From positions 1 through 64,000 of the forward strand of contig JABARQ010000010.1 in assembly GCA_019186985.1 (NCBI GenBank): 64,000 nucleotides of DNA, read 5' to 3'. Origin of the DNA: Prosthecobacter sp. Lineage in GTDB: Bacteria; Verrucomicrobiota; Verrucomicrobiia; Verrucomicrobiales; Verrucomicrobiaceae. Shown one piece after another: positions 51,108 to 60,485 of this stretch. Each line of letters starts with the position of its first letter. The stretch's first letter is position 1. A model generated the notes under the pieces. It was not told the DNA's origin and did no database searches. It saw nothing but the letters and a program-made list of their open reading frames with translations. The position numbers and the translations under genes are program-made.

Positions 51108-51326
51108 TCAATATCCCTGCGCCACATCATCGTCAAAGAACGGATAGTCATTCTCTGGGATAAAAGTGGTTTCGGCTTTAGCCGAAGTCTCAGGCGCAGC
51201 CTGAACGATGACCGTTGTAGCCACTGCGGCAGCGACGGTGCCTTTCAGAGCATTCAGAAGCGCTTCGCGGCGGGTGAAAAAAGTGGCTGCGGCTTTAGCC
51301 GCATCTTGGGCGGTTGAGTTGAGCAT
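51108..51326 (-). CDS. small exported peptide with Tat-like signal (paralogue 2)
   Basis: A 72-residue protein from ATG 51326, paralogous to the one at 47493-47684. It reads [20 protein letters not shown], then EALLNALKGTVAAAVATTVIV, QAAPETSAKAETTF and IPENDYPFF. Two REP-A copies are translated in frame: AKAAATF (51280-51303), absent from paralogue 1, and AKAETTF (51163-51186), shared. It lies directly downstream of the RAYT gene on the same strand (12-bp gap). The twin-arginine-like motif follows the first repeat-derived segment. Function unknown. Confidence 0.65.
   Translation of the reverse strand: MLNSTAQDAAKAAATFFTRREALLNALKGTVAAAVATTVIVQAAPETSAKAETTFIPENDYPFFDDDVAQGY
51163..51186. repeat. 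REP-A copy inside paralogue 2, distal
   Basis: AAAGTGGTTTCGGC...GCCGAA; translated on the minus strand as AKAETTF. Both arms pair. Confidence 0.9.
51280..51303. repeat. REP-A copy inside paralogue 2, proximal
   Basis: AAAGTGGCTGCGGC...GCCGCA, a consensus copy, read in frame as AKAAATF. It is missing from the paralogous gene and so marks an in-frame insertion. It also forms the left member of an inverted pair with 51366-51389 flanking the RAYT gene. Confidence 0.92.
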
Positions 51327-51338
51327 GGTGTCAGTCTT

Positions 51339-52064
51339 TTAGGTTTGGGGTGATTGTTGAAGAACTTCGGCTAAAGCCGAAGCCACTTTGAACTGCTGCT
51401 TGCCAAGACCAACCGCATACTCGTGCGGTAGAAGTCCGGCCCTGATGGGATTCTCCGCGATGTAGCGTCGATAGTGCTGAAACTGCGCCTCAGACCGTAC
51501 GATGTGGTCGTACGGCTCTTTTTGCCAAAGCATTCCACTGCGTCCGAGCAGCCGATTGATCTCGAAAGCGCTGCCGCCCTTCCAGCTTTGCAACACATCA
51601 CCGAGTGTCTGGCCTTCGGGAGCGGCGAGGGCATGGAGATGGTTCGGCATGACCACCCAGGCATCGAGTGAAGGCTCGGAAGTGAGGCGATTCACCAGGA
51701 TGTCCCGGACATCTTGTCTGCGAAGCAGGCATTCACCGTCGCCGGCATCCAGCCATTGGCGCCATTGCATCGTGAACGTGGCGTGAAACTCGTGCTGCTG
51801 ATCCTCGGGCAGCGTGTGGATGTCTCCGGGCTTTTGCAAGCCGTGAGCGTCGAGCCAGGCCTCGCGACGGTGCTGCCACTCGTGGAGCTTTTCCTGAGGC
51901 ATGGAATCCGAAAGCCGGGTGGTGACGAAGTAGGTGACGTGGGCTTGCCGCCAGTGAGGGAGGTTGCCCCGATGGATGTGAAGCTCGTCGTGAGGCCGGA
52001 AGAAAGTGGCTTCGGCTTTAGCCGAAGATGCATTGTCTGGAGGCTCTGACGCGTTCGCATTCAT
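51339..52064 (-). CDS. REP-associated tyrosine transposase (RAYT, Y1 HUH family)
   Basis: A 241-residue Y1-type transposase of the IS200/IS605-related RAYT group, which nicks and spreads REP hairpins in single-stranded DNA. The HUH motif is H142-L-H144 in WVVMPNHLHALAAP. The distal signature is LWQKEPYDHIVRSEAQFQHYRRYIAENPIRAGL, with Tyr198 or Tyr201 the probable catalytic tyrosine. The conserved core begins FRPHDELHIHRGNLPHWRQA (about residue 22). Residues 14-21 (SAKAEATF) and the C-terminal FKVASALAE are encoded by REP-A copies at 52003-52026 and 51366-51389, so the enzyme carries its own substrate repeats at both ends. REPs at 51280 and 52085 lie further out. Confidence 0.92.
   Translation of the reverse strand: MNANASEPPDNASSAKAEATFFRPHDELHIHRGNLPHWRQAHVTYFVTTRLSDSMPQEKLHEWQHRREAWLDAHGLQKPGDIHTLPEDQQHEFHATFTMQWRQWLDAGDGECLLRRQDVRDILVNRLTSEPSLDAWVVMPNHLHALAAPEGQTLGDVLQSWKGGSAFEINRLLGRSGMLWQKEPYDHIVRSEAQFQHYRRYIAENPIRAGLLPHEYAVGLGKQQFKVASALAEVLQQSPQT
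51366..51389. repeat. REP-A copy in RAYT 3' end (inverse)
   Basis: TTCGGCTAAAGCCGAAGCCACTTT orientation (inverse), coding on the minus strand for FKVASALAE near the RAYT C-terminus. Pairs with 51280-51303 in inverse orientation. Confidence 0.93.
52003..52026. repeat. REP-A copy in RAYT 5' end (forward)
   Basis: AAAGTGGCTTCGGC...GCCGAA, consensus arms, coding on the minus strand for AKAEATF at RAYT residues 15-21. It pairs with the inverse copy at 52085-52108 just outside the gene. Confidence 0.93.
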
Positions 52065-52084
52065 CGTCTCTTAGTAGATCAGAT

Positions 52085-52137
52085 TTCGGCTAAAGCCGAA
52101 ACCACTTTCCAGATGCGGCTAAAGCCGCAGCCGCTTT
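52085..52137. repeat. two tandem inverse REP-A copies
   Basis: Copies at 52085-52108 (TTCGGC...CCACTTT) and 52114-52137 (TGCGGC...GCCGCTTT) in the same orientation with a 5-bp spacer. The second touches the TAG stop codon of the FAD oxidoreductase gene at 52138. They mark the upstream border of the RAYT unit. Confidence 0.93.
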
Positions 52138-56238: not shown

Positions 56239-57702
56239 TCAGGCAAGGATCTCGGGAATGACCCTGCCTTCCACATTGGTCAGGCGGCGCCGGATGCCGT
56301 TGTGCTCGAAGCTGAGGCGCTCGTGGTCGAGGCCGAGGAGGTGCAGGATGGTGGCGTTGAAGTGGTAGAGCGGATGCACGTCCTTCACGGCCTTCTGGCC
56401 GAGCTCGTCGCATTCGCCATGGCTGACGCCGGGCTTCACGCCCGCGCCGGTCATCCAGCAGGTGAAGCCGTCGGGGTTGTGGTCGCGGCCCTTCGCACCC
56501 TTTTGGAAGAAGGGCATGCGGCCGAACTCGGTGCACCACACGACGAGCGTGTCCTGCAGCAGCCCGCGCTGCTTCAGGTCGCGGATCAGCGCGGCGGCGG
56601 GCTGGTCGAGGATGCCGGCATGAACGTCGTACTGCGCCTTCAGGTCGCTGTGGCCGTCCCAGTTGAGCTTGCCGCCGCTTGCATAGGCGCCGTTGAAGAG
56701 CTGCACGAAGCGCACACCGCGCTCGATGAGACGACGGGCGAGGATGCAGTTCCTGGCGAAGGCGGCCTTGTCGGCGTTTTGCGTGTCGTCCGCGCCATAC
56801 ATCTTCAGGATGTGCGCCGGCTCGGTGCCGAGGTCGGTGATCTCCGGCACGCTGAGCTGCATGCGCGCGGCAAGCTCGTAGCTGGCGATGCGCGCCGCGA
56901 GCTTCTGGTCGCCCGGGTGCCCTTCGAGATGCCGTGCGTTCATCCTTTGCAGAAGCGAACGCGCCGCCTGGTCCGCCTGGGCGCTGACACCAGGTGCGGA
57001 AAGGTGCCGCACGGGGCTTTTGGAGCTCATCGTGGTGCCCTGGAAGGCGGCGGGAAGAAAGCCCGGGCCCCAGTTGTTCGCGCCGTTCTGCGGAACGCCA
57101 CGCGGATCAGGAATGGCGACGTAGCTCGGCAGATCCTGGTTCTCGCTTCCGAGTGCATAAGTCGTCCAGGCGCCCAGCGAGGGGAAGCCGTCGAGCGTGA
57201 AGCCGGTGGAGAGGAAGTTCTCCGCAGGACCGTGCGTGTTCGACTTGCTGGTGAGCGAATGCACAAAGGCGATGTCGTCGGTGAGCTCCGCGAGATGCGG
57301 GATCATGTCACTCACCCACTTGCCGGTCTGGCCGCGGGGCCGGAAGTCGTACTGGGGCCGCGCGAGGTTGCCTGCGGGACCCTGGAAGGTCACGGCCGGG
57401 CCGCCGGGCAGCGGCTTGTTGTCCCACTTGATGAGCTCGGGCTTGTAATCCCAGGTCTCCAGCTGGCTCACTGCGCCGGCACAGAAGATGACGACGACGT
57501 TCTTCGCCTTCGCCGGAAAGTGCGGCTGCCTTGGCGCATAGGGTCGCGCAGGGTCGATCACCGGACCGTTCGCCGCCAGCAGGCCGTCGGCTCCAAGCAT
57601 CTGCGTGAGGGCGATGGAGCCCAGGGCGGTCGCGCTGCCGTTGAGAAAGCGGCGGCGGTCGAGCAGATGACGGCCTGCGGGGGAGAGAAGGTCGGGGTTC
57701 AT
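56239..57702 (-). CDS. DUF1501 family exported protein
   Basis: A 487-residue DUF1501 protein, paralogous to the one at 4009-5451. Tat signal [18 protein letters not shown] lies near the N-terminus. Family motifs are [56 protein letters not shown] and [31 protein letters not shown]. The conserved metal-site-like D/H residues are retained. Its ATG overlaps the stop of the upstream PSD1 gene by 4 bp, the same coupling as in the pair at 5448, so PSD1 and DUF1501 form a conserved two-gene unit. Confidence 0.93.
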
Positions 57703-60476
57703 GGCACAAACAGGAACTCGTTCGAATTGAACAGGGCGCGGCAGAGCACGGCGAGGCCATGCTGTCGCACTGTAGGTTCGGCGTCGCCGAGCTCGGCGGC
57801 GGTGGGATGACGTCCGAGGGCGAGCCGGAAGGCGCGGGCGACCTGCTTTGATGCCTCCTCACCGGCCTCTTTTTTCACACGGGCCGCGAAGGCGGCGGCG
57901 GTGTCGAGCGTGAAGCGGCTGTTGAAGAGGTTGAGCGCCTGGATCGGCGTGGTGCTGGATCGGCGCACCGCCGTGCTCTGGCCTGCGTCGGGGCAGTCAA
58001 AGGCTCCGAACACGGCCTCGGGTTCGCGACGGACCTTGTGCGCATAGATCATGCGACGCGTGTTTTCCGGCGTGAGCATCTCCACCGGTTCGAACCCCGT
58101 GAGACCGCCGCGCTTGTCGAAAAGGTTGAAGCCGCGCCCGTACATCTTCAGATCGAGCCGGCCGCTCACGGCGAGCATGGAGTCGCGGATGATCTCGGCG
58201 TCGAGACGGCGGGACGGGAAGTGCCAGAGGTAGCGGGATTCGGCGTCTAGTGTGGCTGCGGCTTTTGCCGCATCATTTCGGCCAAAGCTGAAGCCACTTT
58301 GTCGGTAGGTGGCGCTGAGCACGATGAGCCGGTGCATGTGCTTCACGCTCCAGCCGCTGCGGATGAACTCGGCGGCGAGCCAGTCGAGCAGCTCGGGATG
58401 GGTGGGCTTCATGCCCATGCGGCCGAAGTCGCTCGGCGTTTCCACCAGGCCGGTGCCGAAGTGGCCCTGCCAGATCCGGTTCACCATGACGCGGGCGGTG
58501 AGCGGGTTCCGCGGGCTGGCGATCCAGTCGGCAAGAGCGATGCGGCGCTGCTGCTCAGGCGTTTCCTTGGTGAGCTTCAGGTCGCCGAGCGCGCTGAGCA
58601 CGGCAGGAACCACCGGCTCTTTCGGCTGCTCAGGATCGCCGCGGTTGAGCAGGTGGATGTCGTCGGGGATGCGGAAGGTTCCTGCGAAAACCTTCTGTGA
58701 AACATCCAGCTTCTGCAGCTCTTCATCGAGCGGTCGTTTTTGCTTCAGCAGCCGCTGCGCCTCGGCTGCTTCTTCCTTGCGCAGGCCCTCGATGGAAAAG
58801 GCGGGCTGTGTGCGCTCCCGGGTGTCGAAGCGCTGACGATCCTCCGAATCCGCGACGCTCTTCCAGGCACCCGATGCGTCCGCCACCTCGATCACATAGC
58901 TCGTGGCGAGCCGGTCCTTGAACTTTCCCTGGCGGTCACGGCCCCAGACGACGCGGTCGATCTCCTGCTCCTGGGCGAATTCGACCATCACCCAGCCTTT
59001 GCCGACCTCGTTCGACATCCAGCTGCGCGAGTTGCCGTAGCTGCCGTCGTTCACGAAACGCTGCTCGTGACGGTCGGCGGTGACCTTCTCACCGGACACG
59101 GTCACGGCGGCGTTCAGCGCGATGTTTTCGCCGGCGGTGGTGAAGACCTCGAGCTCATCGATGCAGGGCTCCAGGTTGTTGGTGTCACGGACGGTGAAGC
59201 GCAACCGCTTCGCCTTCACCGGCAGGAAGCGGTCGCGGTTTTCCCGGGCGTCCACCATCGGCCGCTTCACCCCCGACCTCGCGATCGGCACAAAGCGCGA
59301 CAGCCTCAGGTCGAGCCCGGCAAGCTCCGCCTTCACCTGCTTCAGCCGTTCACGAGCTGCGAGAGCCTCCGGCGTGCGCAGATCGCGCTCGCCATACTCC
59401 ACACCGGCCACGAAGGCCTGCATGGAGTAGTAATCCTTCGCGCTGATGGGGTCGAACTTGTGGTCGTGGCAGCGTGCGCAGCCGATGCTGAGGCCGAGGA
59501 AGGTCTGGCCGATGTTCACGACGATCTCGTCGATGGAGTCCTGGCGTGCGAGCCGCTTGGAGGGCTCGTCCTTGCCGATCTGGCCAGGCAGCAGCACGGA
59601 GGCGGTGACGAGAAAGCCGGTGGCCGCGTCCTCGCCCAGGGCGTCGCCGGCGATCTGCTCCCTGATGAAACGGTCGTAAGGAGTGTCGTTGTTGAAGGCG
59701 CGGATGACATAGTCGCGGTACGGCCAGGCGTTTGGACGCTCGGTGTTCACCTCAAAGCCATGGGTGTCGGCATAACGAACCACATCGAGCCAGTGCTGAG
59801 CCCAGCGCTCGCCGTAACGCGGCGAGGCGAGAAGGCGCTCAACGACGGCGGCATGATCCTGACGTTTCAGAAAGTCGTCCGTTTCCTCCGGCGTGGGCGG
59901 CAGGCCGGTGAGGTCGAAGGTCACGCGGCGAAGCCACGCGGCCGGATCGGCGGGCGGAGAACGATGCAGGCCCTTCTCGGAGAGTTTCGCGTCGATGAAC
60001 CTGTCGATGGGGCTGGGTTCAAGTTTTCCAGAGACGGCGCTTTGCGCGGAACTTGAAACCTGAAACTTGAAACCTGAAACCTGGACCGGCTTGAAGCTCC
60101 AGTGATCACGCCTGTCCTCGACCTTCGCCTTGTCGACGCCGTCCGGCCAGGCAGCACCTTCATTCACCCAGCGGATGAGCGTGTCGATCTCGGCCTGCGG
60201 AAGGCGTCCCTTGGGCGGCATGAGCTCGTCCTCGTCATCGGTGGTGAGGAAGTGGATGAACGGGCTGTCCTTGGCCCTGCCGGGCAGGATGTCCGGCCCG
60301 TGGTTGTCGCCGCCCCTGAGGGCCTCCGACTTGATGTCGAGCCGCAGGCCGGACTTCTGCTTTTTTCCGCCGTGGCATTCCTGGCAGTGCCTTTCAAGGA
60401 TGGGCCGCACCTCGCGCACGAAGTCGACGGGGGCGGCGAGGGCGGAGGCGGAGATGAGCAGGAAGACGGACCTCAT
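57699..60476 (-). CDS. PSCyt1-DUF1549-DUF1553 (PSD1) protein interrupted by repeats
   Basis: A 925-residue exported protein with PSCyt1 haem motif [13 protein letters not shown] (about residue 34), DUF1549 with [27 protein letters not shown] and [12 protein letters not shown], a discoidin-like insert, and DUF1553 ([35 protein letters not shown]). Two repeats are translated in frame. The linker [13 protein letters not shown] (about residues 131-143) comes from heptamers at 60051-60085. The segment [16 protein letters not shown] (about 726-742) comes from a REP-A pair at 58249-58300 inserted after the conserved TYRQ of DUF1553; the homologue at 5448 has TYRQSARTTPELQQ there. Whether the domain still folds is unknown. 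It starts 9 bp before the FecR-LamG stop and is coupled to DUF1501. Confidence 0.9.
58249..58300. repeat. REP-A inverted pair inside PSD1 gene
   Basis: Forward copy 58249-58272 (start diverged) and inverse copy 58277-58300, 4 bp apart, in a coding gene. Length differences from family members suggest about 51 bp in frame, with no stop codon in the frame used. Confidence 0.88.
60051..60085. repeat. heptamer repeat locus 3, in coding sequence
   Basis: Five consecutive 7-mers ACTTGAA, ACCTGAA, ACTTGAA, ACCTGAA, ACCTGGA inside the PSD1 gene. They are translated on the minus strand as [12 protein letters not shown] in the linker after the PSCyt1 domain. The same heptamers occur at 17475-17502 and 17762-17782. 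Confidence 0.8.
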
Positions 60477-60485
60477 GAAGCAAAA

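Follow-up and report, generated by a model that had tools for sequence, protein, structure and literature searches.

REPs are commonly regarded as extragenic passengers of RAYTs. REPINs, as reportedly defined by Bertels and Rainey in 2011, consist of two inverted REPs flanking a short spacer. In the excerpts of the literature on which we draw, RAYT/TnpAREP REPtrons combine an HUH-Tyr enzyme with inverted GT[AG]G-tagged REPs that bracket the gene, and with REP pairs (PMC2817692, PMC3733652, PMC8266576). Close contact between repeat and gene belongs to these accounts: REPs are enriched near their rayt and lie directly downstream of rayt stops, and in four cases the 3' end of a rayt has turned into part of a BIME spacer (Nunvar 2010, PMC2817692, in part). 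In the relevant sections of Di Nocera 2013 (PMC3733652), RAYT genes overlapped by repeats, whether 5' or 3', are marked, GTAG REPs often provide the TAG stop of the RAYT, and the most intragenic GTAG repeats are found in Opitutus terrae, a verrucomicrobium. Subclass 2.4 tnpAREP genes generally carry in-frame REPs between HuH and Y (Quentin 2018, PMC6006769, in part). Moreover, palindromes that are translated and keep the frame are known from Rickettsia palindromic elements and from REPs lying inside host genes (excerpts of PMC3733652).

Here we describe a RAYT cassette that differs from these REPtrons in having whole REPs as codons at both gene ends and both start and stop codon in REPIN loops, in an arrangement that is common to a clade and whose synonymous sites are frozen. 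Like subclass 2.4, the gene has REPs translated in frame within a RAYT, but as far as the excerpts go those lie between HuH and Y, whereas ours are terminal and appear to replace the native start and C-terminal end; no REP-A copy lies between HuH 142-144 and Y201. In contrast to the Rickettsia elements, the host gene is the element's own transposase, and in contrast to the REPINs, whose inverted REP pair it shares, the spacers provide the start and stop codons. The sequence-only reading of this locus had placed the RAYT-REP tie in Proteobacteria and called REPs coding for both RAYT ends unusual. This needs narrowing, because overlap has already been published, including for O. terrae (parts of PMC3733652 and PMC6006769), and the earlier knowledge of REPs overlapping RAYT ends and of in-frame REPs limits the novelty of our case. 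A search of the open full-text literature and of few subscription journals and preprints returned no account of a RAYT with start and stop both in REPIN loops.

The window is a stretch of 64,000 nucleotides on a 158-kb contig of a Prosthecobacter sp. genome (5.9 Mb in 55 contigs). Its RAYT gene (51339-52064, minus strand) encodes 241 aa from an ATG start, with the HUH motif H142-x-H144 and Tyr201. Allowing up to 3 mismatches, the REP-A query sequence, AAAGTGGCTTCGGCTTTAGCCGAAG, matches the window at 11 places, whereas 100 dinucleotide shuffles gave a mean of 0.00. At the 5' end of the gene, an exact inner REP-A (52003-52027, plus strand) forms codons 13-21 (SSAKAEATF) and pairs with an outer copy with 2 mismatches (52084-52108, minus strand), the start codon (52062-52064, minus strand) sitting in the loop between them. 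At the 3' end, an exact inner copy (51365-51389, minus strand) forms codons 226-234 (KVASALAE and the first base of the following codon). Its outer partner (51280-51304, plus strand, 3 mismatches) encodes DAAKAAATF at the start of a downstream small ORF of 72 aa (51108-51326, minus strand). The RAYT stop codon (51339-51341, minus strand) lies past the inner REP, in the loop of this pair, as does the start codon of the small ORF. Each of these REPs carries one tag, and the GTGG tags of both inner copies point inward relative to the gene, that of the 5' copy toward the gene interior.

The ORF, the motifs and the REP-A matches bear out the earlier description of a gene for an HUH transposase of the RAYT type, flanked by REPs, with one REP per gene end in the RAYT reading frame, and the REP coordinates given there were correct to about 1 base. 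The four copies listed in that description stand, but two were missing from it: a copy with 1 mismatch at 51163-51187 (plus strand), read as SAKAETTF inside the small ORF, and a degenerate REP with the tag GCGG upstream of the RAYT at 52116-52134 (minus strand).

We favor, with a probability of about 0.68, the reading that this is a free-standing RAYT cassette whose terminal REPs are packed so tightly that one per end entered the reading frame. A REPIN would have replaced the ancestral start on the 5' side, with a new ATG in its loop and its inner REP becoming codons 13-21. On the 3' side the ancestral stop would have been lost; the inner REP would have become codons 226-233, and a second REPIN would have supplied a new stop from its loop. 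The terminal hairpins are the presumed recognition sequences of the window RAYT, which would bind and cleave REP-A. The REPs are kept at the DNA level, either as substrate or via homogenization among copies, their translation being tolerated. Tight packing of the substrate would then be the cause of the coding REPs.

At both ends the two inverted REPs fold into one hairpin, as in a REPIN. The 5' pair folds as RNA into a stem of about 26 bp around the ATG, with an energy of -67.4 kcal/mol and a z of -6.6 relative to 200 shuffles; this could suggest autoregulation, in that the 5' REPIN hairpin, as RNA or DNA, would limit translation or let the protein repress its own synthesis. However, every inverted REP pair folds in this way, and the 3' pair, whose loop holds the RAYT stop and the ATG of the small ORF and no RAYT start, folds as well (z -4.6, as DNA). 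We therefore regard autoregulation as quite improbable.

The window gene is assigned to the RAYTs because its anatomy, motifs and fold fit. H142, H144 and Y201 are invariant in 41/41 rows of alignment A1. The gene is bracketed by inverted REPs whose tag, GTGG, is of the GT[AG]G form, and cognate REPs occur elsewhere in the genome. The best Foldseek match of the predicted structure is 4er8_A, a RAYT with a bound REP hairpin (E 2.4e-6; TM 0.37 by query and 0.52 by target). The profile scores lie below cut-offs that are annotation thresholds rather than biological criteria: 75.8 bits for NCBIfam REP_Tyr_transpos NF047646 (cut-off 80) and 17.7 for Pfam Y1_Tnp (gathering score 23). The nearest named relatives of the gene are from MAGs labelled Prosthecobacter, Verrucomicrobiaceae, Akkermansia and Verrucomicrobia.

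The in-frame ATG, GTG or TTG codons of the RAYT are at residues 1, 55 and 76, followed by later ones. Since the stretch from the 5' REP to residue 55 contains no start codon, making the enzyme means translating this REP, and the window RAYT would be translated from the ATG at 52062-52064. A start at 55 would yield a broken enzyme, because residues 36-50 include the invariant core columns P36, H37, Q40, T48 and R50 (41-row A1), and residues 45-51 form the first core strand of the model. A start after the 5' REP, one of two circumstances under which the earlier claim of coding REPs would have fallen, is therefore rejected, the next in-frame start being codon 55 within the conserved core. The stop, for its part, is situated beyond the 3' REP. 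In parts of Di Nocera 2013 (PMC3733652), many N-terminal intragenic REPs are held to be perhaps extragenic, with translation starting downstream. By analogy, the ORF here might be over-called, with the true protein beginning after the 5' REP, or the gene might be dead. Both the position of the next start and a core pN/pS of about 0.2 among six intact members speak against this, leaving it the least probable of the alternatives.

To place the gene among its relatives we assembled 103 RAYT rows (102 loci and the window), of which 97 were kept; L024 (no blast match), L055 and L058 (duplicates of L025 and L033), L033 (frameshifted), and L023 and L184 (fragments) were dropped. On a tree made by a quick method from 85 free-standing and 51 nested rows, the window RAYT falls into a clade of six, clade A (SH-aLRT 96), with L027 and L028, clade B, as sisters (81), inside a clade of 21 rows (100). 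The five intact clade A homologues (L025, L054, L056, L026, L057), 70-83% identical to the window RAYT, all have both REP-coded segments, and their N-terminal length differences keep the frame (L054 and L057 differ by 12-nt units, L057 also by one of 15 nt). A seventh member (L033/L058, G031:C95:2961-3691) has both REP-coded ends and a mid-gene frameshift that reflects decay or an assembly error. The clade B proteins start with MPKYFNP and the N-terminal REP is absent; at their C-terminus a REP with another stem (TTGGGC...GCCCAA) is read in the same frame, giving KVVWASAQAF as against KVASALAE. With the stem different and the frame the same, the terminal peptide has changed with the REP. The other rows of A1 start with M-x-F or similar immediately before the core, and RAYTs without REP-A do not carry the terminal residues of the window protein; their presence there by common descent was the second circumstance that would have overturned the earlier claim.

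The clade A core is maintained as protein by purifying selection, as its pS of 0.650 and pN of 0.127 indicate (15 pairs of the six intact members; the pairs are not independent). In the same non-independent pairs, the REP codons have a pS of 0.060 (N-terminal) and 0.086 (C-terminal), with pN of 0.099 and 0.056, respectively. Between residues 23 and 224, no window is as low in pS (0/195 of seven codons and 0/194 of eight codons; minima 0.356 and 0.397). The leader (pS 0.787, pN 0.515) and the tail (pS 0.494, pN 0.481) are both free to vary. The frozen synonymous sites indicate that it is the DNA, and not the protein, that is conserved in the REP codons; gene conversion among REPs fits them as well as selection does. 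The earlier notion of an enzyme carrying its substrate in its own reading frame thus holds for the in-frame REP and not for a function at the protein level.

The predicted fold bears on whether the REP residues are selected as protein ends, for example as a C-terminal tail for tag contact or regulation, which would bind enzyme and substrate to one sequence. In the AlphaFold2 model, helix 228-237 contains the C-terminal REP residues (pLDDT block means 97 and 88), and the model of the outgroup L034, whose REP lies 42 nt past the stop, has a helix at the same place (216-222). The comparison is not independent, because the input alignments share most rows, but it is consistent with a C-terminal helix that is probably supplied by the REP-coded peptide. 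In E. coli TnpAREP, according to the excerpts of PMC8266576, residues of the C-terminal tail (G160, E161) touch the final two bases of GTAG, and the enzyme becomes more active once its last 13 residues are removed. By analogy with a tail that contacts the tag and limits activity, the REP-coded tail of the window RAYT may be of interest. On the other hand, the N-terminal REP blocks are modelled with low confidence (means 50 and 66), the peptide differs in clade B, and the synonymous sites of the REP codons are as frozen as their other sites, which selection on the protein would not bring about. Protein-level selection on the REP peptide is thus disfavored as the main cause, and we consider functional protein ends unlikely, though the least so among the alternatives.

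The free-standing RAYTs outside clade A show how the reading of tightly packed terminal REPs relates to the family at large. In 64 of 84, the 5' REP is entirely upstream of the ATG; in a single one, L022, it reaches past the chosen ATG, with a doubtful hairpin score, 11 have no scored 5' REP, and 8 have no ATG 30-90 nt before the core. With 64/65 assessable genes having the 5' REP upstream, the N-terminal feature is confined to clade A in this sample. Of the 97 RAYTs, 37 have the nearest 3' hairpin with a copy across the gene overlapping the stop or its 8-nt foot, and 26 have it outside; in 22 the open frame encloses it completely (7 of these frames run on for more than 600 nt), and 12 are unscored. 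In several RAYTs with overlap, the stop is provided by the tag itself (AAAG|TAG). The 15 free-standing RAYTs with the hairpin inside require 7 changes on the tree, or 9 with L029 and L126, which by eye read through a C-terminal REP and were unscored as inside; automatic REP calls err both ways. Placement of the 3' REP is a continuum, and 3' overlap recurs across several lineages. The second RAYT of the window genome, L022 (C15:124002-124616), reads AAAGTCG where L041, L140 and L050 have AAAGTAG with TAG as the stop; it has lost its GTAG stop (GTCG) and extends 19 codons through its own REP.

At up to 2 mismatches, REP-A occurs 20 times in the genome (2 for the reversed-pattern control), 15 of these on the contig of the window. 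Excluding the 6 copies that flank the RAYT, 9/14 lie on this one contig, which makes up 2.7% of the genome. More than five REP-A matches are found in 13 of 56 genomes, the reversed control giving at most 5 per genome. A one-to-one pairing of REP-A with clade A RAYTs fails, as only 4 of these 13 (G000, G006, G022, G031) carry the gene. One genome, G028, has 22 REP-A matches without a clade A RAYT; its REPs are orphans or the gene is absent from the assembly.

REPINs might also have hit each end of the gene by chance, as they hit other coding sequences, irrespective of its identity as a RAYT. In-frame REPs do occur elsewhere in the genome, as in the 58252-58300 pair and in long frames at L007 and L013, and REP-A, read by eye, is open in 4 of 6 frames. 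Random landing does not, however, explain why REPs adjoin the start and stop of most sampled RAYTs, nor why both ends in the window have a REP in the same tag-inward orientation; such chance insertion seems hardly probable, even less so than autoregulation. The inverted pair at 58252-58300 is read in frame (DAAKAAATL) within a 928-codon open frame (57702-60485, minus strand), and an inverted-repeat search of 57500-59800 did not recover it.

The small ORF downstream of the RAYT has, read by eye, a twin-arginine-like N-terminus and the motif PENDYP[FY]F. Family searches (Pfam, NCBIfam) gave nothing over the cut-off for it, and homologues (L275-L289) occur in 15 of 56 relatives. Among the nine printable homologues, a count that leaves out 6 further loci missed by the pattern, three have a REP-coded start (our own and those of G006 and G031), each adjoining a clade A RAYT. 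The other six start without a REP, five in a MNTxPxxLTRREAL-like manner and L285 more divergently (MKTETHTLTRREAL). REP-coded starts beside clade A RAYTs indicate that the REPIN that ends the RAYT replaced the native start of the small ORF, too. A second homologue, 73% identical, is encoded on the same contig (C15 47517-47669, minus strand).

In relatives, REP-flanked RAYTs are also found nested inside host enzymes. At least 40 RAYT matches lie in frames of at least 851 aa. We examined 60 loci and dropped 9 with a host part too short on one side or overall; in the other 51 (L185-L195, L197, L235-L248, L250-L274), host sequence flanks the RAYT on both sides in a frame without stops. No frequency can be derived from these numbers, because the loci were chosen for long open frames. 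The HUH motif is intact by pattern in 47/51, and in 49/51 a flank-to-flank DNA repeat exceeds the 95% level of 400 random pairings. The junctions, with flanks read by eye, are REP-like peptides. Hosts over the NCBIfam cut-off include CarB (L185, L246), ClpB (L186, L239), MetH (L192), LeuRS (L251), ValRS (L242), DnaE (L260), IspG (L267) and HsdR (L243, L244); below the cut-off or by Pfam, there are a DinG/YoaA-type helicase, an Eco57I-type methylase, a Gfo/Idh oxidoreductase, a glycosyltransferase and an adenosine deaminase. PriA (L252) is over the cut-off, but the RAYT precedes the matched part, and family searches returned no host match for L254, L256 and L272. One further locus, L249 (G290:C330:22140-23588), has two RAYT domains in one 717-codon open frame between REP-like peptides.

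For several hosts the nested gene is the only family-level copy: LeuRS in 7/7 genomes chosen for it, with the RAYT between profile positions ~360 and 361-373, and IspG in 3/3 chosen genomes, one of them single-contig (G281). In G053 (CarB), G041 (MetH) and G019 (ClpB), too, no copy other than the nested one passes the family cut-off; G019 has a ClpB paralogue below it. Relatives have uninterrupted copies of ClpB (G018, G023), CarB (G019) and MetH (G039). Alignment of MetH from G041 and G039 leaves a clean gap of 245 aa with flank identities of 0.75 and 0.89, whereas the global alignments of the ClpB and CarB empty sites, in which the insert is broken up (identity on the right flank 0.39, 0.29 and 0.27), are informative in part. 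On the tree, RAYTs nested in CarB, ClpB, the helicase and IspG cluster by host; no such grouping is seen for the tRNA synthetase ones, and free and nested states require 9 changes.

The nested anatomy is well supported, and it suggests, tentatively and at somewhat less than even odds, that RAYT-REP cassettes of Verrucomicrobiota are translation-transparent, with REP ends that stay open in the reading frame, and reside at gene ends or, unspliced, in frame and catalytically intact, within the sole copies of essential enzymes. The hosts would be LeuRS, IspG, CarB, ClpB, MetH, DnaE and others, and the window gene would be a free-standing member of the same continuum, a proposal that we hold just as tentatively. 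Transparency would then be selected, the chimeras would be made unspliced and the nested enzymes would be active. Such elements would share the homing-element niche of inteins, but without splicing. We found no report of RAYTs nested in host enzymes in the open full-text literature and the few subscription journals and preprints covered.

The window case is an extreme of a wider habit in these bacteria. Substrate and enzyme share bases, and consequently the terminal protein sequence shifts with the REP, as in clades A and B. The window RAYT is thus a clean case of a DNA-level constraint overriding codon freedom. If the nested RAYTs, which in many Verrucomicrobiota genomes occupy the sole detected copies of essential enzymes, are what they seem, these cells would be making a tRNA synthetase or a polymerase with a single-stranded DNA transposase domain in the middle of the protein.
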